From Blautia sp. (lineage in GTDB: Bacteria; Bacillota; Clostridia; Lachnospirales; Lachnospiraceae), in the NCBI GenBank assembly GCA_022770365.1, contig JALEHU010000099.1:1-64000 (forward strand): 64,000 nt of DNA, written 5' to 3'. The notes beneath the pieces are model-generated. The model saw only the letters and a program-made list of their open reading frames with translations, was not told the DNA's origin and ran no database searches. Below, in pieces: positions 1-36,785 of this stretch. The position numbers were made by a program, and so were the translations under genes. Position 1 is the first letter of the stretch. The number at the start of each line of letters is the position of its first letter.

Positions 1-443
1 GCAAAAAGGATATCTCCCGCTTCCATAGCGCTGACTGCATCATCAATATACCAGCCGTTTGCCTGTGTTCCGGAAAGGCGGATCTGATCAATCGCATCCA
101 GCGAATCATACAGAGACATTACGGAAGTAGCGGTCAGATAAACTCTGTCCAGAGGCATCTGAAGAACAGTGATATCACTGTCCAGGTTTTCCGGGGCTTC
201 CTTTCCCTCAGGAACCACCAGATATTGTGTTCCATCATTGATATCCAGCAGCCGGTAATCATCTGAATAATTGTATATTTTAAATTTCTGCGCATACTCC
301 AGCGGCATCTCTGACTCAAATGTCAGACCATCAATCTCCGGGGCTTCCTCCGCCCATACTGACTGGCACGGTACTGTTCCAAACATCATTACTGTAACAG
401 TCGCAGCTGCCAGAATTTTCTTCGTTAAGTATTTCCTGTTCAT
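1..443 (-). CDS. BtuF/FhuD-like periplasmic-binding-protein, N-terminal part (runs off the window)
   Basis: The first 147 residues are visible; the gene continues past the left edge. It starts with a signal peptide (positively charged start, hydrophobic core, cleavage near VWA-EE). There is no lipobox: the only Cys lies in TVPC. After the signal comes APEIDGL, then FKIYNYSDDYRLLDI and YLVVPEGKEAPENLD, the pattern of the first lobe of class III metal/corrinoid/siderophore binding proteins. The same segments recur in the C-terminal domain of the 994-residue protein upstream (540-3524), so the two are paralogous. It is the fourth visible gene of the cobalamin-riboswitch operon. The likely job is binding a tetrapyrrole, corrinoid or metal chelate for an ABC importer. 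The ligand is inferred only from the riboswitch and the CbiK neighbour. Confidence 0.7.
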   Translation of the reverse strand, partial: MNRKYLTKKILAAATVTVMMFGTVPCQSVWAEEAPEIDGLTFESEMPLEYAQKFKIYNYSDDYRLLDINDGTQYLVVPEGKEAPENLDSDITVLQMPLDRVYLTATSVMSLYDSLDAIDQIRLSGTQANGWYIDDAVSAMEAGDILF

Positions 444-497
444 TCTTTTATCATCTCCGATTACCAGTACATCGTTATTTAAGAAACAAGGAATCAG

Positions 498-522
498 GAA
501 AGCTGCCATTACAGCAGCTTTC
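498..522 (-). other. Intercistronic hairpin
   Basis: GAAAGCTGC and GCAGCTTTC arms around a 7-base loop lie in the 96-bp gap between the 994-residue gene and the next binding-protein gene. No T-run follows on the minus strand, so it is more likely an mRNA processing or stability element than a terminator. Confidence 0.5.
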
Positions 523-539
523 ACTTAATAACCTGTTTC

Positions 540-3524
540 TTATTTTTCTTCACTGATCAGTTCTGCTGCAAGGTCACTGCAATCAAACAGTACGCCATAC
601 GCTTTCAGCCATTCTGCTTTTGCCATTTCATTCTCTTCGTCTTCGGAACGGTCCACGATCATTGGGATATTAAGAAGTGACATTTTCCGGGCCGTTTCTT
701 TCAGAATCTGCTCTCCCTCTTCACTTTTCAGAACATCTGCCGGAAGAATCACAAGATCACATTCATTCTGAATAATGTCACGGAATTCCATATCTGTATA
801 ATCACCTTCCGAAGCGATGAAATCCTGAAGTTTCAGCTGTTCCAGGGTATCCCTGCCTGCCTCGGAAGTGCTGTAAATTTTCTCCAGCGGCTGTCTCACA
901 ATAATGGTATCCTTGTCAAGTCCTGCCGGTACTTCCTGATTTTCCGGAACGATCAGATATTTTACTACATTTCCGCTGTACAGTTCTTCTGTTGTATCAG
1001 TTGCTGTGGCAGCTTCTTCTGAAGAACCGTCTTCTGCATGCTGCTCCTCTGTTTCTGAAACATCAGAAGCCGCAGTGGAATCCTGTTCTGTATCCTCCAG
1101 AGTTTCTGCGGTACGTTCGGTATCACTTACCATATCAATTTCCAGAAGAGTAATATCATTTTCATAATGGAAAATCTTAAAATATTCCGCATATTCCAGT
1201 TTCTCTTCTGATTCCAGATTCAGACCGATAATTTCCGGTGCCGTTTCATCAAGCTTCAGATTACCGGTAGAGATCATACTGTCCTCGGAAGATGGATTAG
1301 AAGAATCTGTGCTGTCCGTTCCTTTTTTATCAGCACCTGCCAGATATACAAAAATATGATAAGTAATCTCGTGAGGTACGGACATCTTGGTAGTCATACC
1401 GATAATCGTATTATTCTGATTCAATGTTACCGGAATGGTAAACGTTCCGGCTCCTGTATACTGATTTCCGGCTGCCTTTACATAGACAAAAGATGTACTG
1501 CTGAAGGAAATCGTTGCATACGCTTTTCCGCCGCTGATGGTTACCTTACTGCAGGAAATACTGGTACGTCCGCTTCCTCCTGACCAGGTGAAACGATCCG
1601 GAGTATACACACCATCCGGCAGGCTTGTGGAATTATCCACTGCAGATGTGGAACCGCTCAGATCGGATTCGTGTGCGGATTCACTCTCCGGTTTATCATC
1701 CGGAACCGGCGTTGGAGAAGGTGTCGGTGCTGCAGTTGGAGTAACCGGTTTCTCCGGATTTTCGGTATCAATTTTTACCATGCCTTCTGTTTTAAAGGTA
1801 AGAGTTCTGTCATACCAGGTATCATTTTTTACGGAATGTGCTGCAATGCTGATTCCCTCATCAAGAGTACTGACCGGAATCCGGAATGTATACTGTCCCT
1901 CTTCGTTTTCTTTGAATTTAACCCAGGAAGACTCTCCGGCTGCAGCGGCCTGAGCGGCAGTTCCTGCAAACAGATAATCATATCCGACACCGCTGAGAGT
2001 AACAACCGCTGTCATTTTTCCTTTTTGGGATGTCAGTTCACAGTTTACTACACGAAACATAGAAGAACTGGATTCTACATTAACCGTATATTTTCCATCT
2101 TCCAGTATTTCCGGTTTCTGTGCAGGAACAGGTGTCGGCGTTGCTTGTGGTGTCACAGTCGGTGCTTCTGTCGGTACCGGAGTTACAGTTGGTGTTTCTT
2201 CCGGCGTTTTTGTCGGTACCGGAGTTACAGTTGGTGTTTCTTCCGGCGTTTTTGTCAATTCCGGAATGGTAAGCGTCAGTTCCCCCTTGGCATACCAGTT
2301 GCCGCTGGACAGAGCACAGATTGCAACGTTCACCTTCTGACCACCTTTCTCTGCAGGGACGGTAAAGGTATAGGTGTAACCACCTTTTTCATTCGGCACA
2401 CCGGTAATGATATTTTCTTTATTTTCGTCTGTATAGCTTCCCAGATAAAGCTTATCATAGTTCTGCTTTTCTGTAGAAATGGTCACTTCAATCTGATCCC
2501 CATATAATTTTGCGGAAGAATCTGTAATGACAAACATCTTAAACTCGTTTCCGTCTTCCTTTTCCAGTTTCATTCCCGCATCGTCCACAGATGCATCCGG
2601 TTCTATGGAGGGTGCTTCCGTAGGAGTCGGATCAGGTGCTTCTGTTGGAACAGGGGTTGGTGCCTGCGTAGGCTCCACGGTGGGCGCAGGTGTAGGCTCT
2701 GTCTCATCTTTTGTCATAACCTTCGGAACCGTCAGGAAACATTCTTTGGTTGTATACCAGCTTCCGTCTGCTGATTTTCCGGGAACAAAAGTAATCGTCT
2801 GTCCCATTTTCTCAACAGGAAGCTCAAAAACATAACGATATCCGTCTCCATTAGAGGTTCCCTGAATAAAACTGCTCTTTTCCGCATCGGCTGCAGATCC
2901 AAGATAAATCCTGTCATACGTTGCATTGGCACTGTCAAGAGTAACTGTGATTTTCTCACCACTTACCGTTGCGGTTACTTTTGCAATTCGAAACATACGG
3001 AAAGAACTGGTAATGTCAATGTTGTAATCTCCGTCTTCATATACAGCATCATCGACAACAATGCTCTGAAGCATGGGGGTATCCGCACTCCCGGCTTCTT
3101 CCGCCGCCTCTTCCTTATTTCCTTCCGCTTCCGATTTTTCATCCGCTGCATTATTTCCATCCGCTTCCGATTCTTCATCCGCATCATTATTTTCTTCCGC
3201 TTCCGATGTTTCATTCGCAGAATCAGGCTTTTCTTTATCGTCTTTTTCACTGTCTGTATCTGCTGAATCTTCTTTTTCTTTCGAATCCTCTGCGGTATTT
3301 TTTTCGGTATTATCGTCCTGATCTACGGAAGCTTCCTCTGCATTACTCCCCTCAACGGATGTATTACTTTTGATCTGTGTCCCTTCTGTTTTTTCATTCT
3401 GTTCCTGTGTTTGTTTTTCCTCAGCAGTTACTTCCTGATCCGAAGCATAAGAATAAGCTGCCGGAGTAATGGACACCGCTGCTGTCAGAAACAGCGCCAG
3501 GAACTTTCTGGAATTTCTTTTCAT
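540..3524 (-). CDS. Secreted multidomain protein: four beta-type (NEAT-like?) domains plus one binding-protein lobe
   Basis: 994 residues, starting at an ATGA overlap with the previous gene. Layout: signal peptide (1-28), a very acidic Ser/Glu/Asp-rich stretch (29-150), domain 1 (about 161-267), Thr/Pro linker, domain 2 (315-421), Thr/Pro linker with a repeated TPEETPTVTPVP unit (424-470), domain 3 (474-577), Pro linker, domain 4 (636-728), and a C-terminal domain (762-994). Domains 1-3 share an early MF pair (RMF, KMF, SMF), a YD-x-(I/L/Y)-(Y/F)-x-G strand and a late W-Y pair. Domain 4 is a different type (GSGRTSIS ... VPHEITYHI). The C-terminal domain resembles one lobe of a BtuF/FhuD-type binding protein, interrupted by a Ser/Glu-rich insert at 800-850. 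No LPXTG motif, SLH domain or C-terminal membrane helix is seen. The NEAT comparison is tentative. A role in capturing a corrinoid, haem or metal chelate at the cell surface is inferred from the operon. Confidence 0.75.
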   Translation of the reverse strand: MKRNSRKFLALFLTAAVSITPAAYSYASDQEVTAEEKQTQEQNEKTEGTQIKSNTSVEGSNAEEASVDQDDNTEKNTAEDSKEKEDSADTDSEKDDKEKPDSANETSEAEENNDADEESEADGNNAADEKSEAEGNKEEAAEEAGSADTPMLQSIVVDDAVYEDGDYNIDITSSFRMFRIAKVTATVSGEKITVTLDSANATYDRIYLGSAADAEKSSFIQGTSNGDGYRYVFELPVEKMGQTITFVPGKSADGSWYTTKECFLTVPKVMTKDETEPTPAPTVEPTQAPTPVPTEAPDPTPTEAPSIEPDASVDDAGMKLEKEDGNEFKMFVITDSSAKLYGDQIEVTISTEKQNYDKLYLGSYTDENKENIITGVPNEKGGYTYTFTVPAEKGGQKVNVAICALSSGNWYAKGELTLTIPELTKTPEETPTVTPVPTKTPEETPTVTPVPTEAPTVTPQATPTPVPAQKPEILEDGKYTVNVESSSSMFRVVNCELTSQKGKMTAVVTLSGVGYDYLFAGTAAQAAAAGESSWVKFKENEEGQYTFRIPVSTLDEGISIAAHSVKNDTWYDRTLTFKTEGMVKIDTENPEKPVTPTAAPTPSPTPVPDDKPESESAHESDLSGSTSAVDNSTSLPDGVYTPDRFTWSGGSGRTSISCSKVTISGGKAYATISFSSTSFVYVKAAGNQYTGAGTFTIPVTLNQNNTIIGMTTKMSVPHEITYHIFVYLAGADKKGTDSTDSSNPSSEDSMISTGNLKLDETAPEIIGLNLESEEKLEYAEYFKIFHYENDITLLEIDMVSDTERTAETLEDTEQDSTAASDVSETEEQHAEDGSSEEAATATDTTEELYSGNVVKYLIVPENQEVPAGLDKDTIIVRQPLEKIYSTSEAGRDTLEQLKLQDFIASEGDYTDMEFRDIIQNECDLVILPADVLKSEEGEQILKETARKMSLLNIPMIVDRSEDEENEMAKAEWLKAYGVLFDCSDLAAELISEEK

Positions 3525-4159
3525 TTTTCTTCTCCTGACTCAATTACTCTGTATTTTGAATCTTTGACTTCAATTGTATAGATTCCATCTTCCAGATTCA
3601 GTTCTTCCTGAAATTCTGCTTCCCCTGTCTCCGCAGATTCTTCCGGCTTGGGATCTGTAACGCTGACTTTATGGTCATACCATTTCCCCTTTGTCCCAAT
3701 CAATGCCAGGTCAAATTCCTCATCAAGAGCCTGGACCGGGATATCAAAGCCATACACTTCTTCTGTGATTCCGTCACTGTATGTAACGGTATCGGTAGTC
3801 GGCTTAAGAAGCTCTGCCCCATCTTTCTGTGCATCTTCTGCCAGTCCGACAAAAAGATTCACAATACTTTTCGAAGCAAGGCTTACATGCAGAGTCATCT
3901 TTCCATCTTTTACAGTCAGAATGCCCCGTCCTTCATTAGCCTCGTTTACATGGAACATACTGCTGTCTGTATCAAATTCCGCACTGTAAACACCGTCTTC
4001 CAATACACCATCCTCCGCTTTTGCCTCTTCCGTCTCCTCCGGAGATACTTCCGCAGTTTCTTCCTGAGCATCTTCTGCCAGAACAGTATGATAACCTCCC
4101 GTTACAGCAGAAATGCACACAGCAAATACAGTAAACAACATCACGCATCTTCTTTTCAT
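3521..4159 (-). CDS. Secreted single-domain protein, same domain family as the 994-residue protein
   Basis: 212 residues behind AGGAGG (4168-4173). It has a signal peptide (cleavage near VLAED), an acidic linker and one domain at about 51-167 with the family signature DSSMF near the start and KWYDHKV at the end. The last 24 residues read LEDGIYTIEVKDSKYRV, which is the opening strand of a second copy of the domain, and then the gene stops. Its stop overlaps the start of the 994-residue gene (ATGA), implying translational coupling. It has no membrane anchor or sorting signal. It may pass a ligand between surface proteins, by analogy with NEAT relays. No function is proven by the sequence. Confidence 0.7.
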   Translation of the reverse strand: MKRRCVMLFTVFAVCISAVTGGYHTVLAEDAQEETAEVSPEETEEAKAEDGVLEDGVYSAEFDTDSSMFHVNEANEGRGILTVKDGKMTLHVSLASKSIVNLFVGLAEDAQKDGAELLKPTTDTVTYSDGITEEVYGFDIPVQALDEEFDLALIGTKGKWYDHKVSVTDPKPEESAETGEAEFQEELNLEDGIYTIEVKDSKYRVIESGEEK

Positions 4160-4180
4160 TCATTTATCCTCCTACAACAA

Positions 4181-4213
4181 CTGCCCGGAAATCAGCAGAT
4201 TGATTCCGGGCAG
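4181..4213 (-). other. Hairpin between the chelatase gene and the next gene
   Basis: CTGCCCGGAA and TTCCGGGCAG arms lie between cbiK and the 212-residue gene. On the minus (coding) strand no T-run follows. On the plus strand it is followed by ATTTTTTATT, so it could stop antisense transcripts. On the coding strand it more likely affects mRNA stability. Confidence 0.5.
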
Positions 4214-4313
4214 TATTTTTTATTGTTCACAGTCGTATTTTCTCATTATGTGACCGTTTTCCTATCCGGTATCTTTATCAGAAAACAGCCGCAGCATCTT
4301 ATAACAACTTCCT

Positions 4314-5555
4314 TTACTCTGCCAGAGAATCGATTGCTGCTTTTGCATGGTCTACATAAAGCTGTTTTACTGCATCAATTCTTCCAAGACCAGCAATCTG
4401 AGCATTTACACTGTCAAAATTTCCGGATGCCTCAAACAAGCTCTTCCAGGAATCTTCTTCAACACCTGCCATGTCGTTGTTTGCATGATCACCTGCTACT
4501 ACCATAAGAGGACGAAGAATAACCTTTGTGTATCCGGCTTCTTTTACTTTGTCAATGACTGCTTCACATGCCGTATCTTCAGGTTCACCCTCTACAGTAC
4601 CAATGAATGCATTGGCAAATCCCAGTTCATCCATCTGTGTCTGCATCTGGCTGTAGCTTATCTTTGCTGTATGAGAAGTTCCGTGTCCCATAAATACAAA
4701 TGCCACACCGTCTTCTGCTGCTTTTTCCATACTCTCATATCCTGCATCTGCAACTGCTGCATCTGTAACAGCTTTGGCTACTGCTTCTTTATCAGCATTG
4801 ATAACCGTTGCGTCATCGCCAACCTCACCAAGAAGAGGTTCTGCAATGGCGATTGATTCAAACTGATCCTGATATTCTTCCAGAGCTTCTCTCATTTCAT
4901 CATACTCTGCACCATGCATCAGATGAGTCGGCTGTACTACCAGATTCTTAACACCATTTGCTGCTGCGCGGTCCAGTGCCTGCTGCATATTATCAATGGC
5001 CTCACCATCTCTTGCCTGTACGTGGTTGATGATAATCTGTGCAGTGAATGCTCTTCTTACAGACCAGTCCGGATAAGCTTCCTTCAGAGCATCTTCAATT
5101 CCTTTGATATCTTCTACACGGCTGTCATTATAGGAAGTACCAAAGCTTACTACCAGAAGCTCATTTTCACCGATTTCATCCTGGTTCAGTGCATCATCAG
5201 CAGACGCATCACCGGTATCCAGTCCGAAATAATCCGGGCTTGCTTCTTCGCCTTCTACCAGTTCTTTCTGAGCATCTGTCAGAGCATCCCAGGCTTCTTT
5301 TGCAGCTACACAGTCCTCGTCTGTAGTTTCCGTTCTTTCCTGAACATAAATCTTATCGATCAGTGCTGCAACATTGTCAGCTGCTTCCTGGTCTGCGTCT
5401 GCGCCTTCCTCTGCTGTCTCTTCTCCTGTTTCCTCAGTATCAGCCTCTGCCTCTACAGCTGTTTCTTCCTCTGCAAAAGTCGGTACAGTTCCCATCATCA
5501 TCAGGGTAGTTGCAGAAAGTCCTAATGCCAGTGCTCTAAATGCTTTGTTTCTCAT
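4314..5555 (-). CDS. cbiK: Exported CbiK-type sirohydrochlorin cobaltochelatase
   Basis: 413 residues from the ATG behind AAGGAGGAG; upstream in-frame codons lack a ribosome site. A clear signal peptide (cleavage near TFA-EEE) is followed by an acidic linker, then a small helical segment (about 60-108) with the KEAWDALTDAQKELV pattern often found in secreted proteins, then a complete CbiK domain (130-413). The three metal/catalytic residues of the family are present: His291 in MGHGT, Glu322 in GTVEGEP and His357 in AGDHANNDM. CbiK normally inserts Co2+ into sirohydrochlorin in the cytoplasm during anaerobic B12 synthesis. Exported family members are known in Desulfovibrio (CbiK-P), where haem binding was described. 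Here it is the first gene after a cobalamin riboswitch and is followed by surface-binding proteins, so a role in metal or tetrapyrrole handling outside the membrane is likely. A cytoplasmic paralogue lies at 33409-34194. Confidence 0.88.
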   Translation of the reverse strand: MRNKAFRALALGLSATTLMMMGTVPTFAEEETAVEAEADTEETGEETAEEGADADQEAADNVAALIDKIYVQERTETTDEDCVAAKEAWDALTDAQKELVEGEEASPDYFGLDTGDASADDALNQDEIGENELLVVSFGTSYNDSRVEDIKGIEDALKEAYPDWSVRRAFTAQIIINHVQARDGEAIDNMQQALDRAAANGVKNLVVQPTHLMHGAEYDEMREALEEYQDQFESIAIAEPLLGEVGDDATVINADKEAVAKAVTDAAVADAGYESMEKAAEDGVAFVFMGHGTSHTAKISYSQMQTQMDELGFANAFIGTVEGEPEDTACEAVIDKVKEAGYTKVILRPLMVVAGDHANNDMAGVEEDSWKSLFEASGNFDSVNAQIAGLGRIDAVKQLYVDHAKAAIDSLAE

Positions 5556-5728
5556 GTTTTGTCTCCTCCTTACCTGTGAGAAAAATAATGTTTCTGATGT
5601 ATGTTCAAATTTTGCATCAGCAATTTTGTAAGGTACGACAACATGAGCAGATATTTTCATCTTGTCCTACAAGTTGTGAAAGTATCTCCATTTCACCTTT
5701 CTATACTCCAGTACATCAAATAATGTAT

Positions 5729-5753
5729 TAAAAAGAATCCCACCAGAAGGATT
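5729..5753 (-). terminator. Possible second terminator after the cobalamin riboswitch
   Basis: On the minus strand AATCC and GGATT arms are followed by CTTTTTAA, downstream of the stronger hairpin at 5794-5827. The stem is short, so it is either a weak second terminator or part of an alternative fold. Confidence 0.4.
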
Positions 5754-5793
5754 TTTTTATATTACAGGAAAATGCTTCGTATTTTCTTATGAT

Positions 5794-5827
5794 ATAAAAA
5801 AAATCCTCTCACCATAGGTAAAAGGAT
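5794..5827 (-). terminator. Intrinsic terminator, expression platform of the cobalamin riboswitch
   Basis: On the minus strand an 11-bp stem (ATCCTTTTACC against GGTGAGAGGAT, with G-U pairs) and a 3-base loop are followed by eight T residues. It lies about 80 bases after the aptamer and 240 bases before cbiK, the expected place for B12-dependent termination. Confidence 0.8.
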
Positions 5828-5906
5828 CGTATCAGGAAAAACAGATTCATGCTCTTCCACTCGGTACAATCAATTACTCGTGATCTGAAACATCATGTTC
5901 CCGTAC

Positions 5907-6096
5907 CAACAACAGGCAGGTTTCCTGGCTTATAAATCATCATACAAGACTGCCTTCCCGGTTTCCCAGTGACTGTGCACATACACGTGTCTTGTACTCC
6001 TTAAATACAGTGACGAGATCGTACAGGATTCTCACCTGTTTCCCTATTATACAAAAATTGTTCTTCTTGCTTAAACAAAGTCTGTCACCTGTTGTT
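5907..6096 (-). promoter_or_regulatory. Cobalamin (AdoCbl-type) riboswitch, first copy
   Basis: Read on the minus strand, it shows the family landmarks in order: a P1 arm (AACAACAGG) at 6088-6096, GGGAAACAGGTGAGAATCC, GTCACTG, GGGAAACCGGGAAGGC, then GCCAGGAAACCTGCC (the B12 box), closing with CCTGTTGTT, which pairs with the first arm. A terminator hairpin follows. It should switch off the exported cbiK / surface-protein operon when cobalamin is plentiful. Confidence 0.92.
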
Positions 6097-6116
6097 TTCT
6101 TTATTTAATTTTTTTT

Positions 6117-6145
6117 AGAATATCATATTTTTCTGTAAAGCTCAA
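6117..6145 (-). promoter_or_regulatory. Promoter of the cobalamin-riboswitch surface operon
   Basis: TTGAGC (6140-6145) and TATTCT (6117-6122) with a 17-base spacer on the minus strand, about 20 bases ahead of the riboswitch P1 arm. Confidence 0.65.
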
Positions 6146-6358
6146 GTACTTTTTACAGAATGCCTGACAATGATTTTTACATATACATACAAAAAGCTGT
6201 CGCTACTTAATTCACTAAAAAGTGATCATATTCAACGTGCCACGCCCCTGCATTTTCCTGCTTTACACCATCCCCGAGATAATGTATATTCTTATATGTA
6301 CATTTTAAAAGGAGGAAGAACTGCATCAGACATCTTCAGTCAACGCAGACAAATTTAT

Positions 6359-12335: not shown

Positions 12336-13333
12336 GACTTCGTATTCTTTCTGAAAAATTTAAACAGATAACATGCTCCCACACATACCGCAACCACGAT
12401 CAGACTTCCGACAATACCGGAAAAAGTTGTTCCCAGCATGGAATCTGATCCTTTAAAAGCATAATCCGGAAGAACGGAGGTAACATCCTGTATGGACTGC
12501 GCAGCCTGGTAAACGCCGGTTGCCGCACTTTCAATTTCTGTAGAACCTGTGATTCTCTCAATAGACCATTCCAGTCCATCCGGATAGGAAGAAGCAACAA
12601 GAGAGAGGACTCCTCCGATGAAAACTGCCGCTGCAGCAAGAACCGTCATTGTTTTCTTAAACGACATTTTTTCCTTTTTCGCTTCTGTTTCAGTACTGTA
12701 AAACAGCAGTTCCGGTCTTGCCTCGTATACAAATATCAGAACCGCAGCTGTGATCAGCCCCTCTACCAGGCCGATTGCCAGATGGATCGGCTGCATTGTT
12801 CCTACAAAAACAGAAAATGGCAGATCCGTGATTCCGGATGCCAGTGTCTCCAGTGTCACACTGAAAGCGCCCATCTGCAGAGTCAGAATACAACCCAAAA
12901 CTGACGCTCCGGCAATTTTTGCTCTGGACATTCCATTCTTCATAACAGGTTTCCAGATAAGGAGCGAACCGACAAAGCATCCATAAAACGCCATATTCCA
13001 GATATTACAGCCCAGTGCCAGAAGCCCACCGTCTGCAAACAGAAGCCCCTGGATCAGAAGAACTCCGATCATGGTCAAAAATCCGGCATAAGGCCCAAGC
13101 AGTGCAGATAAAAGCATACCCCCGCATAAATGTCCGCTGGAACCGGTTCCGGGAATTGTAAAATTGATCATCTGTGCGGCAAAAACAAATGCGCCCATAA
13201 TTCCCATAACCGGAACCTTTTTGGTATCTGTTTCCAGCCGTACCTTCTTTACAGAATAAGCTGCAGCCGCAGCCGAACAAATATACATTGTACCTGCCAC
13301 TGCAGGTGCAACCAGTGCATCCGCCATATGCAT
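12332..13333 (-). CDS. cbiM: CbiM/NikM substrate-specific component with fused PDGLE (N-type) domain
   Basis: 333 residues. ATG 13333 follows GGAGGGAGG (13342-13350) and gives MHMADALVAP; the N-terminal Met-His is needed for metal binding in this family. The body has GSSGHLCGGMLLSALLGPYAGF (split here as GSSGHLCGG and LLGPYAGF). The C-terminal third carries an extracytoplasmic SSYPDGLEWS segment and a last membrane helix, the PDGLE domain that replaces separate CbiN or NikN. Such CbiM-N fusions occur in both Ni and Co transporters, so the metal is open. A 295-base leader with a long inverted repeat precedes it. Confidence 0.88.
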   Translation of the reverse strand: MHMADALVAPAVAGTMYICSAAAAAYSVKKVRLETDTKKVPVMGIMGAFVFAAQMINFTIPGTGSSGHLCGGMLLSALLGPYAGFLTMIGVLLIQGLLFADGGLLALGCNIWNMAFYGCFVGSLLIWKPVMKNGMSRAKIAGASVLGCILTLQMGAFSVTLETLASGITDLPFSVFVGTMQPIHLAIGLVEGLITAAVLIFVYEARPELLFYSTETEAKKEKMSFKKTMTVLAAAAVFIGGVLSLVASSYPDGLEWSIERITGSTEIESAATGVYQAAQSIQDVTSVLPDYAFKGSDSMLGTTFSGIVGSLIVVAVCVGACYLFKFFRKNTKS

Positions 13334-30298: not shown

Positions 30299-30318
30299 AA
30301 ATGCAGTAGAAAATGTTT

Positions 30319-30485
30319 CAAGGTGCCTGTACTTCACCTTTCGGAGTATAGGAGAATAGGGAAGTGAGTGAAAGGCTCACACGGTCACGCCGCTGTATGG
30401 GAGGAGCTGTGTTTTGAAATGCCACTGGGGGTATCCGGGAAGGCAAAATGCAGCAGGGAGCCCCGAGTCAGAAGACCTGCCTTGT
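30319..30485 (+). promoter_or_regulatory. Cobalamin riboswitch, second copy
   Basis: Landmarks in order: CAAGGTGCC (P1), AATAGGGAAG, ACGGTCACGCCGCTGTA, GCCACTGGGGG, CCGGGAAGGC, then GAGTCAGAAGACCTGCC (B12 box) and CCTTG closing P1. A terminator follows at 30594-30626. It should shut off the CbiMNQO-K operon when cobalamin is abundant. Confidence 0.93.
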
Positions 30486-30593
30486 ACGTGTGATTTGCAC
30501 GGATTACGAACGATGGCCTTGTGTAAGAACAGGTGATTTTCAGTATATCAGACCGTATACGGATAAACAGCTGAAACTGCCTGTTCCTGTAAC

Positions 30594-30626
30594 AGCCTGT
30601 CGGGATCTTCCCTGCAGGCTTTTTTA
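30594..30626 (+). terminator. Intrinsic terminator of the second cobalamin riboswitch
   Basis: AGCCTG and CAGGCT outer arms with an inner GGG/CCC pair, followed by TTTTTT, 66 bases before cbiM. Confidence 0.82.
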
Positions 30627-30691
30627 TTTCATAGCAAAGTGCTGCGCATTTTCCTATGATATAAAACAGATAACCGGAATGGAGAAAAACG

Positions 30692-31438
30692 ATGAACAAA
30701 ACACAAAAAAAGATCATTGCACTAACAGCCGGAATTTCTCTTTCTTTCGGCATTGTCCCCACTGTAAATGCCATGCACATTATGGAAGGTTATCTTCCGG
30801 CCGGATACTGCATCGCATGGGGCGCATTATGCATCCCGTTTCTTTTTGCAGGATTTCTTTCAATTAAAAAAACACTGAACGAACATCGGAATCTGATCAC
30901 TCTGCTGGCCATGTCCGGCGCCTTTGTTTTTGTGATCTCCTCACTGAAGATTCCGTCTGTCACCGGCAGCTGTTCCCATATGACCGGAACAGGACTGGGA
31001 GCAATCCTCTTCGGACCTTCTGCAGTTTCCATACTCGGACTGATCGTGCTGCTGTTTCAGGCAATCCTTCTTGCTCACGGCGGGCTGACCACCATTGGTG
31101 CAAACACCTTTTCCATGGCAATTGCAGGTCCTTTTGTCTCCTATGGAATTTATCTTCTCTGCAAGAAAGCACGGATCAATAAAAAAGCATCTGCTTTTTT
31201 CGCTGCGGCTCTGGGGGATCTTTTTACCTACTGCATCACAGCATTCCAGCTGGCACTTGCACACAATACAGATACCACGTTCGGTGCCGCTCTCGGAAAA
31301 TTTATGCTTGTTTTTGCACCTACCCAGATTCCTCTCGCAGTGATCGAGGGCATCATTACCATGGTGATCGTTATGGGACTGGAATCTTATGCCAGACCGG
31401 AACTGAGGGCTGTGGGATACTTTAAGGAGAATCAATAA
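30692..31438 (+). CDS. cbiM: Cobalt ECF transporter substrate-specific protein CbiM
   Basis: 248 residues, ATG behind GGAGAAAAACG. A cleavable signal (MNKTQKKIIALTAG...VNA) exposes MHIMEGYLP, the Met-His start that binds the metal. Conserved GSCSHMTGTGLGAILFGP and HGGLTTIGANTFSMAIAGPF follow; about six or seven membrane segments. First gene of a B12-riboswitch operon with cbiN, cbiQ, cbiO and cbiK, so Co2+ is the likely substrate. Unlike the copy at 12332-13333 it has no PDGLE domain, because CbiN is separate here. Confidence 0.94.
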   Translation: MNKTQKKIIALTAGISLSFGIVPTVNAMHIMEGYLPAGYCIAWGALCIPFLFAGFLSIKKTLNEHRNLITLLAMSGAFVFVISSLKIPSVTGSCSHMTGTGLGAILFGPSAVSILGLIVLLFQAILLAHGGLTTIGANTFSMAIAGPFVSYGIYLLCKKARINKKASAFFAAALGDLFTYCITAFQLALAHNTDTTFGAALGKFMLVFAPTQIPLAVIEGIITMVIVMGLESYARPELRAVGYFKENQ

Positions 31439-31439
31439 C

Positions 31440-31760
31440 ATGAAAAAAACTGTTTTAATTGCTGTCATTGCTGTTTTACTGATCGCACTGATTCCTTTAT
31501 TTGTATTAAAGGATGCAGATTTCGGCGGCTCTGATGACGCCGGAAGTACGGTTGTGGAAGAAGTGGATTCGTCCTACGAACCATGGGCCACCCCCATACT
31601 GGAAAAGCTTCTGGGAAGAGAACTTCCGGGAGAAGTGGAAAGTCTCTTTTTCTGTATCCAGACCGGAATCGGTGTAGGGATCATCGCCTTTTTCATGGGG
31701 CGTTTTGTAGAACGAAAAAAATGGATGAAAAATGACAATCAGGACAGGAGTGAATCATGA
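31440..31760 (+). CDS. cbiN: Cobalt transport protein CbiN
   Basis: 106 residues: N-terminal helix, GGSDDAGSTVVEEVDSSYEPW in the extracellular loop (key parts GSDD and YEPW), then GEVESLFFCIQTGIGVGIIAF as second helix. This is the complete CbiN pattern; CbiN helps CbiM load metal. It begins one base after the cbiM stop and overlaps cbiQ by four bases (ATGA). Confidence 0.93.
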   Translation: MKKTVLIAVIAVLLIALIPLFVLKDADFGGSDDAGSTVVEEVDSSYEPWATPILEKLLGRELPGEVESLFFCIQTGIGVGIIAFFMGRFVERKKWMKNDNQDRSES

Positions 31761-32533
31761 TTGTAATCGACAAACTCTGCTACCGTTCTCCTCTCCGGTA
31801 TGAAAATGCCGGTGAAAAATTTGCATTTGCGGTCATCACCCTGGGCATCTGTGTAATGAGCCGTTCTATTACGGTCGCCTGTATCGTGCTTCCGGTCATG
31901 GGGATTCTCACTGTCTGGAAAGGGGGCGTCCCGCTTTCCCGCTATCTGCATTTTCTGACGGTTCCTCTGGCGTTTATGCTGCTGAGTACAGCTGCCGTGA
32001 TGTTCCATATCCGCCGTACCCCCATGGATTTATTTGCTGTTCCCATAGGAAACTGGTATTTTACCACAGGCATACACTCACTGCTCTATGGTATCCAGCT
32101 CATCCTCACCGCCGTTGCCTCGGTTTCCTGTTTGTACTTCCTATCTTTCACCACACCCATGCCTGACATTCTGGAGGTCTTAAGGAAACTTCACTGCCCG
32201 AAGCTGCTCATTGAACTGATGCTTCTGATCTACCGGTTCATTTTTGTTCTGCTTGACACAGCTTCCGCTATTACCACCTCACAGAACTGCCGTCTTGGAA
32301 ACAGGAACTACAGGACATCCGTCAAATCTTTCGGCATGCTCGGCTCTTCGCTGATGATCCGGGCCGTGCAGCGCTCCAATAAACTGTACGATGCCATGGA
32401 AGCAAGATGCTATGATGGAACGATCCGGGTTCTGTCAGAAAGCCGTCCGCCCAGAAAAAAAATTGTTGCGGCGATCATCCTGTTTGATACGGCACTGCTT
32501 GTATTTGCCTTATGGAGGAAATTTCTTATATGA
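31757..32533 (+). CDS. cbiQ: Cobalt ECF transporter membrane protein CbiQ
   Basis: 258 residues, ATG inside the end of cbiN behind AGGAG. About five membrane segments; the coupling region reads RAVQRSNKLYDAMEARCYDG, the CbiQ form of the A-R-G helix. It links CbiM/CbiN to the ATPase. Its stop overlaps the cbiO start (ATGA, 32530-32533). Confidence 0.92.
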   Translation: MIVIDKLCYRSPLRYENAGEKFAFAVITLGICVMSRSITVACIVLPVMGILTVWKGGVPLSRYLHFLTVPLAFMLLSTAAVMFHIRRTPMDLFAVPIGNWYFTTGIHSLLYGIQLILTAVASVSCLYFLSFTTPMPDILEVLRKLHCPKLLIELMLLIYRFIFVLLDTASAITTSQNCRLGNRNYRTSVKSFGMLGSSLMIRAVQRSNKLYDAMEARCYDGTIRVLSESRPPRKKIVAAIILFDTALLVFALWRKFLI

Positions 32534-34194
32534 ACACACATGACGATGTTATCCTGAAAGCAGATAATCTGTATTTTTCTTATGATGACGATACATCCCA
32601 CTCTCTTAACGGACTTTCTCTGGAAATCCGCCGAAAAAAGAAAATTGCTTTTATGGGAGCCAACGGCAGCGGAAAATCCACCTTTTTCCTCTGCTGTACC
32701 GGAATCTGCCGTCCTCAGTCCGGAAAACTCTTTTTTAACGGAAAAGAATACTCTTATTCCAAAAAAGAGCTTCTGGAACTTAGAAGCAAAATCGGCATTG
32801 TATTTCAGGATCCCGATAACCAGCTTTTTTCTGCCAGTGTCTATCAGGAAATTTCTTTTGGTATCCTGAATCTCGGCGTACCGGAAGAACAGGCACGCAA
32901 AGAGGTGGAAGAGGTCATTGACACTCTGGAGATCACCCCGTTTCGCCACAAACCCACCCACGCATTAAGCGGCGGTCAGAAAAAACAGGTTTCCATCGCG
33001 GATATTCTTGTAATGCACCCTGACATCATCATCCTGGATGAGCCCTCCGCAGCGCTGGATCCCAGACATACCACCATGGTAAACCAGATCGTCAATCGTA
33101 TGACACAGCAGGGGATTACAGTAATGATGGCTACCCATGACGTCAACTATGCCTATGAGTGGGCAGATGAAGTAGTACTGTTTCACGAAGGAAAAGTTCT
33201 GATACACGGGACTCCCGCTGAGGTTTTTACCAACCGCGCGGCCCTCAGACAGACGAATCTGGAACCCCCCGTGGTTTTAGAATTATTTGAAAGTCTCTGC
33301 CAGAAACAGATTCTCAAAACTTCGCTCCCCCTTCCCAGAAACTTAAAAACTCTTGAAAAATATATTTCAGATATTCACTTAAACCCATGTTACGGAGGAA
33401 AAAATACCATGTCTTCAGAAGCAAAAAAAGCAATCCTGGCAGTCAGCTTCGGCACCAGCCACAATGATACCAGGGAAGTAACCATTGATGCCATTGAACA
33501 GGATATCCGGGATGCATTTCCGGATTATACGCTTTACCGGGCGTGGACCAGCAAAATGATCATCCGGAAACTAAAGACCAGAGACAATGTCCATGTACAT
33601 AATGTAAAAGAGGCAATGGAGCAGATGCGTGCGGATGGAATCACGGATGTTCTGATCCAGCCTACCCATGTGATTAACGGTATCGAAAATGACCTGATGA
33701 AAGAAGATGCACTGGCCTATCGCGATGATTTTCATTCTATTTCCTTCGGCGATCCTCTGCTTACCAGTGAACAGGATAATCTGGATGTGATCCGGGCGAT
33801 CACAGAAGAATTTTCTGATTTGAAGCAGGATGAAGCACTGGTTCTCATGGGGCATGGAACCACCCATTATGCCAACGCCATTTATGCTGCCCTGGACTAT
33901 ACTTTTAAAGATAAAGGCTATCGTAATATCTTCCTCGGCACAGTAGAAGCATATCCGTCTATGGAAAGCCTGATGCGAATGATCAAAGAATACAATCCTC
34001 GCAAAGTCATTCTTGCTCCTTTTATGATTGTTGCCGGTGATCACGCAAAAAATGATATGGCAGGAGATGATCCTGATTCCTGGTACAGTCAGTTCAAAGC
34101 TGCCGGTTTTGAGACGGAAACAAGGATCATTGGACTTGGCCAGTATCCCGGAATCCGCAGAATCTTTGTGAAGCATCTGAAAGCAATACAGTAA
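32530..34194 (+). CDS. cbiO-cbiK: CbiO ATPase fused in frame to CbiK cobaltochelatase
   Basis: 554 residues from ATG 32530 (GGAGG at 32514-32518, ATGA overlap with cbiQ). Residues 1 to about 270 are CbiO: Walker A GANGSGKST, signature LSGGQKKQVSIADIL, Walker B IIILDEPSAALD, H-loop ATHD. A short linker (about 271-293) leads into a complete CbiK (294-554) with its His (MGHGT), Glu (GTVEAYP) and His (AGDHAKNDM). CbiO moves cobalt in; CbiK inserts Co2+ into sirohydrochlorin, so the fusion would place the chelatase at the transporter's cytoplasmic face. The CbiK part keeps its own ribosome site and ATG (33394-33411), so a free 261-residue CbiK may also be made. No stop codon or frameshift separates the parts. 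Confidence 0.88.
   Translation: MNTHDDVILKADNLYFSYDDDTSHSLNGLSLEIRRKKKIAFMGANGSGKSTFFLCCTGICRPQSGKLFFNGKEYSYSKKELLELRSKIGIVFQDPDNQLFSASVYQEISFGILNLGVPEEQARKEVEEVIDTLEITPFRHKPTHALSGGQKKQVSIADILVMHPDIIILDEPSAALDPRHTTMVNQIVNRMTQQGITVMMATHDVNYAYEWADEVVLFHEGKVLIHGTPAEVFTNRAALRQTNLEPPVVLELFESLCQKQILKTSLPLPRNLKTLEKYISDIHLNPCYGGKNTMSSEAKKAILAVSFGTSHNDTREVTIDAIEQDIRDAFPDYTLYRAWTSKMIIRKLKTRDNVHVHNVKEAMEQMRADGITDVLIQPTHVINGIENDLMKEDALAYRDDFHSISFGDPLLTSEQDNLDVIRAITEEFSDLKQDEALVLMGHGTTHYANAIYAALDYTFKDKGYRNIFLGTVEAYPSMESLMRMIKEYNPRKVILAPFMIVAGDHAKNDMAGDDPDSWYSQFKAAGFETETRIIGLGQYPGIRRIFVKHLKAIQ
33394..33411 (+). promoter_or_regulatory. Internal ribosome site and ATG for free CbiK
   Basis: GGAGG at 33394-33398 is followed, ten bases later, by the in-frame ATG at 33409-33411, giving MSSEAKKAILAVSFGTS, the normal start of a cytoplasmic CbiK of 261 residues. 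This suggests two products from one gene. Confidence 0.7.
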
Positions 34195-34310: not shown

Positions 34311-36785
34311 TCACTCCGGTTTTACCGCACAGAGCATGAACATGGGAGTTGGATTATAAAATTCATCTTTTTCTATATAAATTCTTGTACTGATACCAAG
34401 GTCAATGTTAAATTTCTCCAGATTCATTTTCCCCAGAGTTTCCAGATCCCATGCAGGACGGCTGTAGGAGCTGATAGGAAGCTGTCTTTTGATTTCCTCA
34501 CATTCACGCATCATCTCATCTCCAACCGTATGATGAGCATGTGTCTCAGGCAGATCAGATGTGTCCGCGAAATCGCTCAGGCCATAATTGGCATCAAAAT
34601 TCAGAAGGATACCGCCTTTTTTCAAAACACGCAGCCATTCCCGGTAAGCCTGAGCGGCATCCGGCAAAGTCCACGTCAGATTCCGTGACACCACCACGTC
34701 AAAACTTTCCGAAGGAAAATCCAGATGTTCCGCATCCATCTCATAAAATTCGCAGTAAACGCCTTCCTCAGCCGCAAGCTTTCTGGAATTCTCCACCATT
34801 TCCGGTGTCAGATCGGTTCCTGTGGCCTCATAGCCCTGCTTTGCCAGCAGTATGGTGAAAAATCCTGTTCCGCATCCCACATCCAGAATCCTCAGAGGCT
34901 CTTCTGTGCCCGATAAGCCCGATTTTTTGATCTGCTGCTCTATTTCCCTGAGCCAGCGTCCTGCCATCGCACTGTGGAGCTCCTGACGGCGCTGTGAAAG
35001 AAAGCTTTCGCTTCGTTTCCCCCAGTATCTCACGATCCGTTCCTTGCGCTCATCATTCTCTTTTACGATCCTGCCATAGGCAACCATCGGGCCGTCTTCC
35101 AGAACCTGCAGCGAACCTGTCTGGTAAAGAATAATGCCGTCATATTCCGCAGTGCTGACTTCCAGTACATGGCCTTCATAATCACGCACTTCTCCAAGAA
35201 ATTCCCCTTTGCGTACAATGTCACCGGCTTTTCTGGCAGGATACCACAAACCGCCCTGTGATGCATCCTGATAGCGTACATCTGCCACATCCAGCGGATA
35301 ATAAGTACGATAATCTTTGATTCCCTGATAAATTCCCAGATGGCATAAAATATTGCGCACATCCCGTCTGGTGGACCGGGCTTCCTCACTTTTCCAGTTT
35401 CCCATTCCTCCCCGTTCGATCAGGATACTGGGAATTCCTGCAGATGCGGCATAATTATAGGCGCCTCCGGATTCCACATTGGACTTTACCATATAAGGCA
35501 CATCCACCTGCTCTGCCATCTGCCGCGACGCTGCAACTACTTCCGGTGCTGCTTTTCCGGCATAATATACATAGGGAGTCAGTTCCTCATAATCATCTCC
35601 GCTGTGCAGATCAATACAATAATCTGCTGCCGGATACAGTTCCTGAACAATCGCATATGCCAGGCGCTCCATTTCCGTTCCGTCTGCCCTGCCCGGAAAT
35701 ACGCGGTTCAGGTTCTTGTCATCACTCAGTCCCATACTGCCGTTCCTCGCCTCAAATGCAGGCCTGTTCACCACTTTCACAAGAATGATCGTTCCTGTCA
35801 CCTTTTCGATTTTCAGCCTCTCGGACAGCTCGATCACGGACTGGATTCCCACATATTCTCCGGCATGAACACCTGCCATGACCAGGGCGGTTTTGCCCGG
35901 CTGCTTCCCGTGAAGAATCGTTGCGGGAAGCGGGAATTCACCATTTCCCAGTTTCAGGCATCCGCTGACCCGTTCTCCGGGAGCCGCTTCCATACCGCAC
36001 AGACGAAAAACGTCCTTCTCCTTAATACCTCTTAGTAAAAATACAGTTGTGGAAGAGTTATTCACAATTTCTTCTTCTGTCCAGACTTCTTTCCACACAT
36101 CTTCATCACAGTCCACCTGTGTAAAACCAGCAGCTCCCATGGCTTCCAGATCCCACTGCGGCCTTTTGAGACGGCTTAATGGAACCTGTCTTGCGATTTC
36201 TTCCATTTTCTCATTATCGGTGTCACCGTAGTAATCTTCAAACTGCTCGTCTGCCACATTCTGACGGTCTGCCTCATAAGCTTCTCTCTTGTGTTCATCG
36301 AATAAATGTCCGTACCAGTCCGCATCAAAATTAAGCAGTACACCACCTTTTTTCAGTACACGGTACCATTCCTTATAAGCTTTTGCCGGATCCGGAAGGT
36401 TCCAGGTAACATTGCGCGTAACAACTGCATCAAACTGCCCATCTTCCAGCTTCAGTTCCTGGGCATCTCCCACCATCCAGCAGATTTTTTCCGCCAGGTT
36501 TCCTGCATTCTGACGGGCTTCTTTAAGCATCTCTGCTGTATAGTCCACAGCTGTTACCTGATATCCGGCTTCTGCAAGGAGAATGGCAAAAAAGCCAGGC
36601 CCCGTGCCCACATCCAGTATATGGATATCTGCCGGCTCCTTTCCAGGAAAATGCTCTGTGAGTAGTGCAAGTAACTTTTCCTTCCACATCGAACGTCTGG
36701 CGTCCGCCATTTCCTGCTGATTATATTCAGAATAACCGGAAGCACGTTTTGTCCAGTATTCATAAATCTCCTCTTTTAAATTCAT
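34311..36785 (-). CDS. Three-part fusion: SAM methyltransferase / M14 (AstE/AspA-like) deacylase / SAM methyltransferase
   Basis: 824 residues, ATG behind CGGAG. Residues 1-250: class I methyltransferase with LDVGTGPG (57-64) and RNVTWNLPDP. Residues about 260-575: M14 zinc hydrolase of the succinylglutamate desuccinylase/aspartoacylase type, with zinc ligands His307 and Glu310 (GVHAGEY) and His394 (DLHSG), substrate Arg in NLNRVFPG (361) and catalytic Glu457 (IERGG), closing with the usual barrel-like tail. Residues 576-824: a second methyltransferase, LDVGCGTG (634-641), RNLTWTLPDA, clearly homologous to the first. All three active sites look intact. Its promoter carries the 21-bp motif shared with the cbiMQO and second ABC operons. 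A role in altering a metal-chelating acyl-amino acid (metallophore) is a hypothesis. I know of no characterised protein with this order. Confidence 0.85.
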   Translation of the reverse strand: MNLKEEIYEYWTKRASGYSEYNQQEMADARRSMWKEKLLALLTEHFPGKEPADIHILDVGTGPGFFAILLAEAGYQVTAVDYTAEMLKEARQNAGNLAEKICWMVGDAQELKLEDGQFDAVVTRNVTWNLPDPAKAYKEWYRVLKKGGVLLNFDADWYGHLFDEHKREAYEADRQNVADEQFEDYYGDTDNEKMEEIARQVPLSRLKRPQWDLEAMGAAGFTQVDCDEDVWKEVWTEEEIVNNSSTTVFLLRGIKEKDVFRLCGMEAAPGERVSGCLKLGNGEFPLPATILHGKQPGKTALVMAGVHAGEYVGIQSVIELSERLKIEKVTGTIILVKVVNRPAFEARNGSMGLSDDKNLNRVFPGRADGTEMERLAYAIVQELYPAADYCIDLHSGDDYEELTPYVYYAGKAAPEVVAASRQMAEQVDVPYMVKSNVESGGAYNYAASAGIPSILIERGGMGNWKSEEARSTRRDVRNILCHLGIYQGIKDYRTYYPLDVADVRYQDASQGGLWYPARKAGDIVRKGEFLGEVRDYEGHVLEVSTAEYDGIILYQTGSLQVLEDGPMVAYGRIVKENDERKERIVRYWGKRSESFLSQRRQELHSAMAGRWLREIEQQIKKSGLSGTEEPLRILDVGCGTGFFTILLAKQGYEATGTDLTPEMVENSRKLAAEEGVYCEFYEMDAEHLDFPSESFDVVVSRNLTWTLPDAAQAYREWLRVLKKGGILLNFDANYGLSDFADTSDLPETHAHHTVGDEMMRECEEIKRQLPISSYSRPAWDLETLGKMNLEKFNIDLGISTRIYIEKDEFYNPTPMFMLCAVKPE

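Follow-up and report, generated by a model that had tools for sequence, protein, structure and literature searches.

Anaerobic B12 synthesis becomes committed when cobalt is inserted. Why, then, does an operon behind a cobalamin riboswitch in Blautia sp. encode a CbiK chelatase that bears an export signal, alongside secreted beta-domain proteins and a BtuF-like binding protein? The window that we analysed is the whole 64,000-nucleotide stretch at positions 1 to 64,000 of contig JALEHU010000099.1, and the operon lies on the minus strand at its left end. A sequence-only reading had proposed a system for surface capture of tetrapyrroles with a chelatase working outside the membrane. Among open-access titles and abstract openings, a scope outside which most subscription papers and preprints fall, exported CbiK in Firmicutes was not found as a topic.

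The layout begins as that reading described it, with a B12 riboswitch and a terminator ahead of the minus-strand genes. A cobalamin aptamer (RF00174) at 5898–6107 (−) matches over the full model length with 92.4 bits (gathering score, 31.5). It is followed, in the interval before the first gene, by an intrinsic terminator at 5802–5828 (−) with a 12-pair stem and a T tail; one terminator was found between aptamer and CbiK, where shuffled sequences gave a mean of 0.3. With this arrangement the riboswitch would permit reading of the operon when cobalamin is low. The first gene (4314–5555, −) encodes the exported CbiK, in which an N-terminal linker region precedes the chelatase domain. We prefer the ATG at 5555, preceded by AGGAGGAG, which gives 413 aa; a longer ORF of 448 aa starts at 5660. 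Next comes NTD1 (3521–4159, −), the secreted one-domain protein that had been anticipated here, with a conserved WYDHK motif at residues 160–164.

Both the signal peptide and the catalytic residues earlier claimed for CbiK were found. The protein scores 239.1 bits against PF06180 (curated score 26.2) and falls short of the cut-off of NF047852, the NCBIfam equivalog for sirohydrochlorin cobaltochelatase (199.8 bits vs 400); judged by these scores, it is a member of the family and not of the named equivalog. Its catalytic positions are E252, H326 and H392, plus E357. We take E89, H145 and H207 to be the metal-binding residues of Salmonella CbiK, and these positions, together with that of Glu184 in Desulfovibrio vulgaris CbiKP, are kept in 64/64 clade-1 and 18/18 clade-2 exported sequences (for this count and for the CbiK tree, 64 of the 65 clade-1 sequences were taken, one of two same-named L043 copies being dropped). 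By a home-made signal-peptide rule, 60 of the 64 clade-1 frames carry a signal peptide or lipobox. The four misses are the window protein and L012, both with a type-I signal that is visible by eye and falls below threshold, L072, whose frame is cut by an edge, and L194. The same rule makes lipoproteins of 72 of the 82 exported frames, the window CbiK being of type I instead, and it set the CbiK classes, except that the edge-cut L176 was placed by hand in clade 2 and L124 among the cytosolic copies. All 18 clade-2 copies have a weak NTD1 match within 1.5 kb (paired by eye). Two exported proteins hold two CbiK domains each: one of 934 aa with NTD1 between them (L056, 7962–10766) and one of 768 aa, judged from its 1061-bit score (L282, 3534–5840).

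The third gene encodes a secreted protein of 994 aa (540–3524, −) in which the expected four beta domains and binding-protein lobe can be recognized. Beta-domains 1 (2709–3074, −) and 2 (2235–2588, −) resemble domain 3, the former at 38 bits and the latter weakly, at 8.9 bits. Domain 3 (1749–2114, −) is NTD1-like, reached from NTD1 at 29 bits, and domain 4, here Md4 (1320–1604, −), has relatives that match the NEAT family PF05031. The BtuF-like piece (546–1247, −) matches the BtuF-like protein P0005 over residues 760–797 and 826–993 (20 and 37 bits). Of 53 members of the beta-domain alignment, 39 match PF05031 at E ≤ 0.01, the best at 1.2e-9; the best score among the single beta-domain proteins scanned, 28.2, lies under the gathering score of 32.8. 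Structure prediction finds a NEAT fold in a relative from L220, with covering rows that are nearly all Md4. NTD1 alone is a well-predicted beta domain, and the rows behind the predicted NEAT fold cover Md4 almost exclusively. A PDB sequence search with the beta-domain profile gave 3sik (IsdX1) as its sole match, at E 0.2, and one with P0011 gave none. We dropped an adhesin or cell-wall repeat identity, since Big_4 matches 4 of the 53 members vs 39 for NEAT.

The fourth gene is BtuF-like, as had been stated, and incomplete: only its N-terminal part is present (about 443 down to 3, −), cut where window base 1 is also base 1 of the contig (C60). A PDB sequence search with P0005 returned one siderophore-binding protein at E 0.05. 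The operon continues on a second Blautia contig, CAMBAL010000045.1 (L203; titled uncultured Blautia sp.), which aligns to window positions 1–6153 in three pieces of 98.2–99.0% identity and holds a full BtuF-like copy, and on contig C53 of the window's own assembly (L012). Past the edge, both have the order binding protein, FecCD permease, ABC ATPase, the L203 ATPase being partial, as the stretch examined ends inside the gene. The check suggested earlier, a search for ABC permease genes left of the window, thus turned up permease and ATPase in both. The importer genes on C53 score 123.5 (PF01497), 254.5 (FecCD) and 109.9 bits (ABC_tran). The top NCBIfam model for the permease is BtuC at 200.7 bits, below its equivalog cut-off of 334. 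The C53 locus (L012 9373–18726) is a second operon copy, 82–89% identical to the window where aligned, with one extra beta-domain by eye in its multidomain protein; it is either a paralogue or derived from an admixed sister species (assembly contamination is 3%). Its ATPase (P0007, 9373–10473) has a C-terminal extension of ~110 residues (about 255–366) with a GGGTGIPV...GVPIGSCNRR pattern, outside all Pfam matches listed; one NCBIfam corrinoid ATPase model extends to residue 344.

How widespread is this arrangement, and what accompanies it? We surveyed 250 Lachnospiraceae genomes (250 genus codes), of which 90 gave NTD1 matches with P0003 as query, 66 strong and 24 weaker. Flanks were taken for 61 of the 66 strong genomes (G011, G128, G154, G187 and G246 were left out). 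CbiK is present in 58 of these 61 loci, 54 of which have a same-strand RF00174 match no more than 1.5 kb upstream of it; the stretch contains the full set of four components (CbiK, binding protein, permease, ATPase) in 36/61. Fusions are frequent. CbiK and NTD1 share one frame in 22/61 loci, CbiK::NTD1::Md4 occurs in L230 and L254, and NTD1::Md4::BtuF in L210, L213 and L249. The ATPase is fused to the cobyric acid synthase CbiP in five loci (L093, L094, L095, L101, L102) and to CbiD in one (L076). In L071, where no riboswitch was found, the system sits inside a corrin-ring operon, in the order CbiK::NTD1-SBP-CbiP-CbiC-CbiD-CbiF-permease-ATPase. Cobalamin genes lie in the examined flanks of only 28/61 loci. 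CbiK is also present in 77 of the best 80 of at least 502 titled public loci, whose hosts include Blautia, Roseburia hominis, Coprococcus comes, Eubacterium ramulus, Butyrivibrio and Kineothrix. ABC-exporter-like gene pairs adjoin CbiK/NTD1 loci at L225 6871–10406 and L069 11798–15267 (the first of each pair was scanned), and no importer genes were seen in these two stretches; the pairs are possible tetrapyrrole exporters or chance neighbours.

The gene content of whole genomes ties exported CbiK to the corrin ring pathway. CbiD occurs in 147 of the 250 genomes and in 79 of the 80 that are classified as carrying exported CbiK. Among the 103 CbiD-less genomes one has exported CbiK (G063, 89% complete) and six have unclassified copies. 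The 147 CbiD genomes divide into 51 with exported CbiK only, 24 with exported and cytosolic, four with exported and unclassified, 47 with cytosolic only, nine with none and 12 with unclassified copies. In this division the 22 genomes that have unclassified copies form groups of their own (four beside exported ones, 12 with and six without CbiD), G063 and G138 were assigned a class even though each has one unplaced CbiK copy of three, and a single PF06180 match that ranked below those listed was taken as the CbiK of the examined locus. The 51 exported-only genomes have no second PF06180 match.

Most of these 51 genomes are short of functions that precede and supply cobalt insertion. CbiM, told from NikM-type proteins by match end and frame length, is present in 0/51 exported-only vs 34/47 cytosolic-only genomes (Fisher p 5.6e-16, kinship being ignored in this and the next test) and in 6/24 mixed ones. 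HemC is present in 11/51 vs 20/20 cytosolic-only genomes tested (Fisher p 3.8e-10; a weak match of 28.4 bits in G008 was scored present), precorrin-2 dehydrogenase in 15/51 vs 20/20, and CbiL in 29/51 vs 20/20. The tests for these three and for CobN covered 80 genomes, among them 20 of the 47 cytosolic-only and none of the 24 mixed genomes, to which the window's own belongs. Since all 80 have PF13241 matches that reach the Pfam cut-off, a match was counted as precorrin-2 dehydrogenase from 75 bits; this threshold and that of 160 bits for CbiL (NCBI's is 163.25) were set from gaps in the score lists. Of the 22 exported-only genomes without CbiL at that score, 17 also have neither HemC nor precorrin-2 dehydrogenase, and in 19 genomes CbiL and CbiD are present and both of the latter are absent. 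CbiD without HemC, found in 40/51 exported-only genomes (a count that does not extend to the window's own genome), is the pattern that defines tetrapyrrole precursor salvagers, a class reportedly described in 2018. Two candidates for a missing chelatase were dropped: CobN, found in 0/80 genomes tested, and CbiX, as the listed PF01903 matches of the 51 genomes lie on CbiK frames by eye (the one match of G131 is outside those listed, and those of G084 and G186, neither of them exported-only, lie in other long frames).

Assembly gaps are probably not the chief reason for these absences, because the 32 exported-only genomes that are at least 95% complete show the same picture (HemC in 7, dehydrogenase in 10, CbiL in 19). 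On the exported-CbiK tree the HemC label changes nine times, and the class label changes eight times on a 38-row CbiD tree. Across four supported independent pairs, the average number with the opposite direction was 3.2 for CbiM and 2.7 for HemC, and none had the same direction; this is not significant, and with four pairs the test cannot reach significance. Ring enzymes other than CbiD (CbiH, F, G, C, J) were seen in the four loci annotated for them (L049, L071, L076, L099). The nine CbiD genomes without any CbiK (G003, G018, G040, G052, G094, G127, G142, G167, G207) have HemC in one, dehydrogenase in two, CbiL in three and CbiM in one; eight of the nine are thus also without HemC, and G040, G094, G127 and G207, which have CbiD yet neither HemC nor CbiK, are 97–100% complete.

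The window's Blautia has the exported system alongside the classical route of CbiM and cytosolic CbiK. A second cobalamin riboswitch (30304–30498, +; 110.6 bits) precedes the cobalt ECF component CbiM at 30692–31438 (+; PF01891 at 30776–31390, 184.9 bits) and an ABC ATPase, CbiO-like by eye, fused to a cytosolic CbiK at 32512–34194 (+; PF06180 at 33427–34185, 288.9 bits), for which the home-made rule gives no signal peptide. The same interval, 30304–34194 (+), also holds a CbiQ-like gene by eye. This genome is a natural comparison of both cobalt routes. A NikM-type PF01891 match at 12707–13330 (−) makes two ECF metal-transport loci on the contig. By eye, an 824-aa ORF (34311–36785, −) has a carboxypeptidase-like segment between two SAM methyltransferase-like halves.

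We consider it very probable that the operon serves B12-linked import of a tetrapyrrole from outside the cytoplasm, and to this extent the surface-capture proposal of the sequence-only reading is supported. Its other part, a chelatase at work outside the membrane, stands less firmly: whether CbiK inserts cobalt there is in our judgement an even question. We lean towards an early precursor, not a finished corrinoid, as the cargo. For the system as a whole, extracytoplasmic metallation and import for cobamide synthesis has about an even chance of being right. CbiK, exported usually as a lipoprotein and in the window with a type-I signal, would load Co2+ into a compound early in the corrin pathway. 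Sirohydrochlorin (factor II) is the likeliest, and other microbes, the diet or the host may provide it. The cobalt-loaded ring would then pass by way of NTD1 and the NEAT-like domains, which in many loci are in one frame with CbiK or with the binding protein, to the BtuF-like protein, and the FecCD/ABC importer, to judge from its family, would bring it in. Inside the cell, CbiL/CbiH, CbiF, CbiD and the rest would complete the corrin ring. In many genomes the system may replace HemC macrocycle synthesis, precorrin-2 dehydrogenase, CbiM and cytosolic CbiK, as the co-absence of these genes suggests. Import of an early macrocycle after cobalt loading outside would let one operon explain all four losses. 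It would likewise explain why there is a riboswitch, why the active site is intact, why the partner domain has a porphyrin-binding fold and why fusions join the system to corrin enzymes.

Some observations do not fit this proposal simply. The 22 of 51 exported-only genomes without CbiL are the clearest case, as sirohydrochlorin would be a dead end in them, except if their CbiL has diverged or if a later compound (factor III?) is carried. HemC is kept in 11/51, so some genomes make the macrocycle and would need to export it. Counting against replacement, the 24 carriers that also have cytosolic CbiK include the window's genome, and six of them have CbiM. The four nearly complete CbiD genomes with neither HemC nor CbiK are a further misfit, and the scarcity of cobalamin genes in the flanks (28/61 loci) and the low NF047852 score of CbiK weigh on the same side.

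The main rival to precursor import is that the system scavenges late or completed corrinoids (cobalamin, cobinamide, cobyric acid): CbiK and the NEAT-like domains would bind corrinoid and pass it to BtuFCD, the chelatase being idle or cobalt-stripping. The upstream B12 riboswitch and the BtuC match of the permease suit it, as do the late genes CobT, CobS, CbiB and CbiP in the flanks, the ATPase::CbiP fusions and the very existence of CbiL-less genomes. We nevertheless think it unlikely. It leaves unexplained why exported CbiK should occur in only one of the 103 CbiD-less genomes (six more have unclassified copies), why catalytic residues should be conserved in 82/82 sequences, and why CbiM, HemC and cytosolic CbiK should be jointly missing from genomes that keep the ring genes (CbiD in 51/51, with CbiH, F, G, C and J in the four annotated loci).

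That the system acquires haem or iron, as Iht and NEAT proteins are usually described to do, with CbiK removing haem iron or ferrying haem to the importer, strikes us as improbable. The NEAT fold speaks for it, as does the weak similarity of the binding protein to IsdE; haem binding, or a putative reverse-ferrochelatase role, is described for IhtB and for FetB of Porphyromonas gingivalis, a relative. The residues tell otherwise. The NEAT haem-ligand motif is YxxxY, and its first Tyr is replaced by His in 45 of 46 NEAT-like sequences, YxxxY being kept in one; His96 of D. vulgaris CbiKP, presumably the haem ligand, corresponds to Asp in 63 of the 64 clade-1 sequences. Nor would haem uptake account for a B12 riboswitch at 54/58 CbiK loci, for corrin enzymes as operon and fusion partners, or for the near-confinement of exported CbiK to CbiD genomes. 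About as improbable, finally, is a cobalt-ion importer that replaces CbiMNQO, with CbiK merely binding Co2+ for ABC import of the free or chelated ion: the missing CbiM in 51/51 exported-only genomes favours it, but PF01497/FecCD importers carry metal chelates and cobalamin, cobalt in the cytosol would still need a chelatase where searches for a further CbiK, CbiX or CobN gave nothing, and the losses of HemC and precorrin-2 dehydrogenase would go unexplained.

Precursor import can be taken further, and we do so tentatively, rating the following somewhat below an even chance. Cobalt insertion may have moved outside the membrane in dozens of gut Lachnospiraceae genera, where a surface CbiK would load a macrocycle made by others or swap the iron of siroheme for cobalt. 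NEAT-like domains and a BtuFCD-like importer would then take in cobalt-sirohydrochlorin, or cobalt-factor III in CbiL-less genomes, uniting cobalt importer, chelatase and precursor uptake in one, with the iht locus of P. gingivalis as a convergent version. The operon is a candidate, testable uptake system for organisms that have the corrin ring pathway without their own starting ring. If the proposal is true, a metal-insertion step of biosynthesis would take place outside the cytoplasm and gut microbes would cross-feed one another with early B12 precursors; it could also account for the many gut Lachnospiraceae that look like broken B12 producers.

Several known systems bear comparison. Salmonella cytosolic CbiK (1qgo) and the CbiO::CbiK fusion of the window have catalytic residues in common with exported CbiK, and 1qgo also has its fold. 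Both are cytosolic, the one in the window paired with CbiM, whereas exported CbiK is paired with NEAT-like domains. The periplasmic CbiKP of D. vulgaris (PDB 2xvx/2xvz) differs from nearly all clade-1 sequences at the His96 position noted above, and no importer operon or NEAT partner is known for it. NEAT haem-binding domains such as those of IsdX1, Hbp2 and IsdC differ from the window domains and their relatives, whose Pfam scores are sub-cut-off in the single proteins scanned, which have HxxxY in place of YxxxY and which are under B12 control. With BtuG and BtuH of Bacteroides, surface B12-binding lipoproteins, the likeness, as far as the available part of the source goes, is that of surface proteins in B12 uptake; BtuG and BtuH bind finished B12, and their systems are not known to include a chelatase.

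Tetrapyrrole precursor salvagers are described, mostly among Firmicutes, as having the corrin ring pathway without early tetrapyrrole genes; they may take up a precursor, the available part of the paper names no transporter, and the tests there used 5-aminolevulinic acid (Shelton et al., PMC6461909). Salvagers are a physiological class, and the window operon is a candidate macrocycle route. Among gut butyrate producers of the Lachnospiraceae and Ruminococcaceae, the accessible text reports no strain complete for cobalamin genes and more than 70% of signature genes in most (PMC7360928).

The closest known locus is iht of P. gingivalis, filed under haem uptake. We take its IhtB to be the same protein as FetB (PDB 9b86). 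In the portions of the literature available, a B12 riboswitch stands upstream of a TonB receptor that is called a BtuB homologue, the locus also encodes a CbiK-homologous lipoprotein, a substrate-binding protein, a permease and an ATPase, and Iht is described as a haem/iron uptake system (PMC10913741, PMC3764172). Likewise in excerpt, FetB is credited in a review with making Mn-protoporphyrin (PMC13402209), and P. gingivalis is said to be without the steps to precorrin-2 (PMC6461909). Iht (IhtABCDE) thus resembles the window operon, as far as these portions go, in its exported CbiK homologue, binding protein, permease, ATPase and B12 riboswitch. It differs in its Gram-negative host with the TonB receptor IhtA (the genes of the window operon were assigned to families other than that of TonB receptors) and in NEAT-like domains, which the window operon has and which those portions of text do not mention for Iht. 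FetB groups with D. vulgaris CbiKP, separated from the Lachnospiraceae CbiKs by a 97% branch (both are long branches). That a distant phylum has this combination too, and with a CbiK of a separate branch, would by analogy fit import of a precursor, and it suggests another reading of the Iht system itself.
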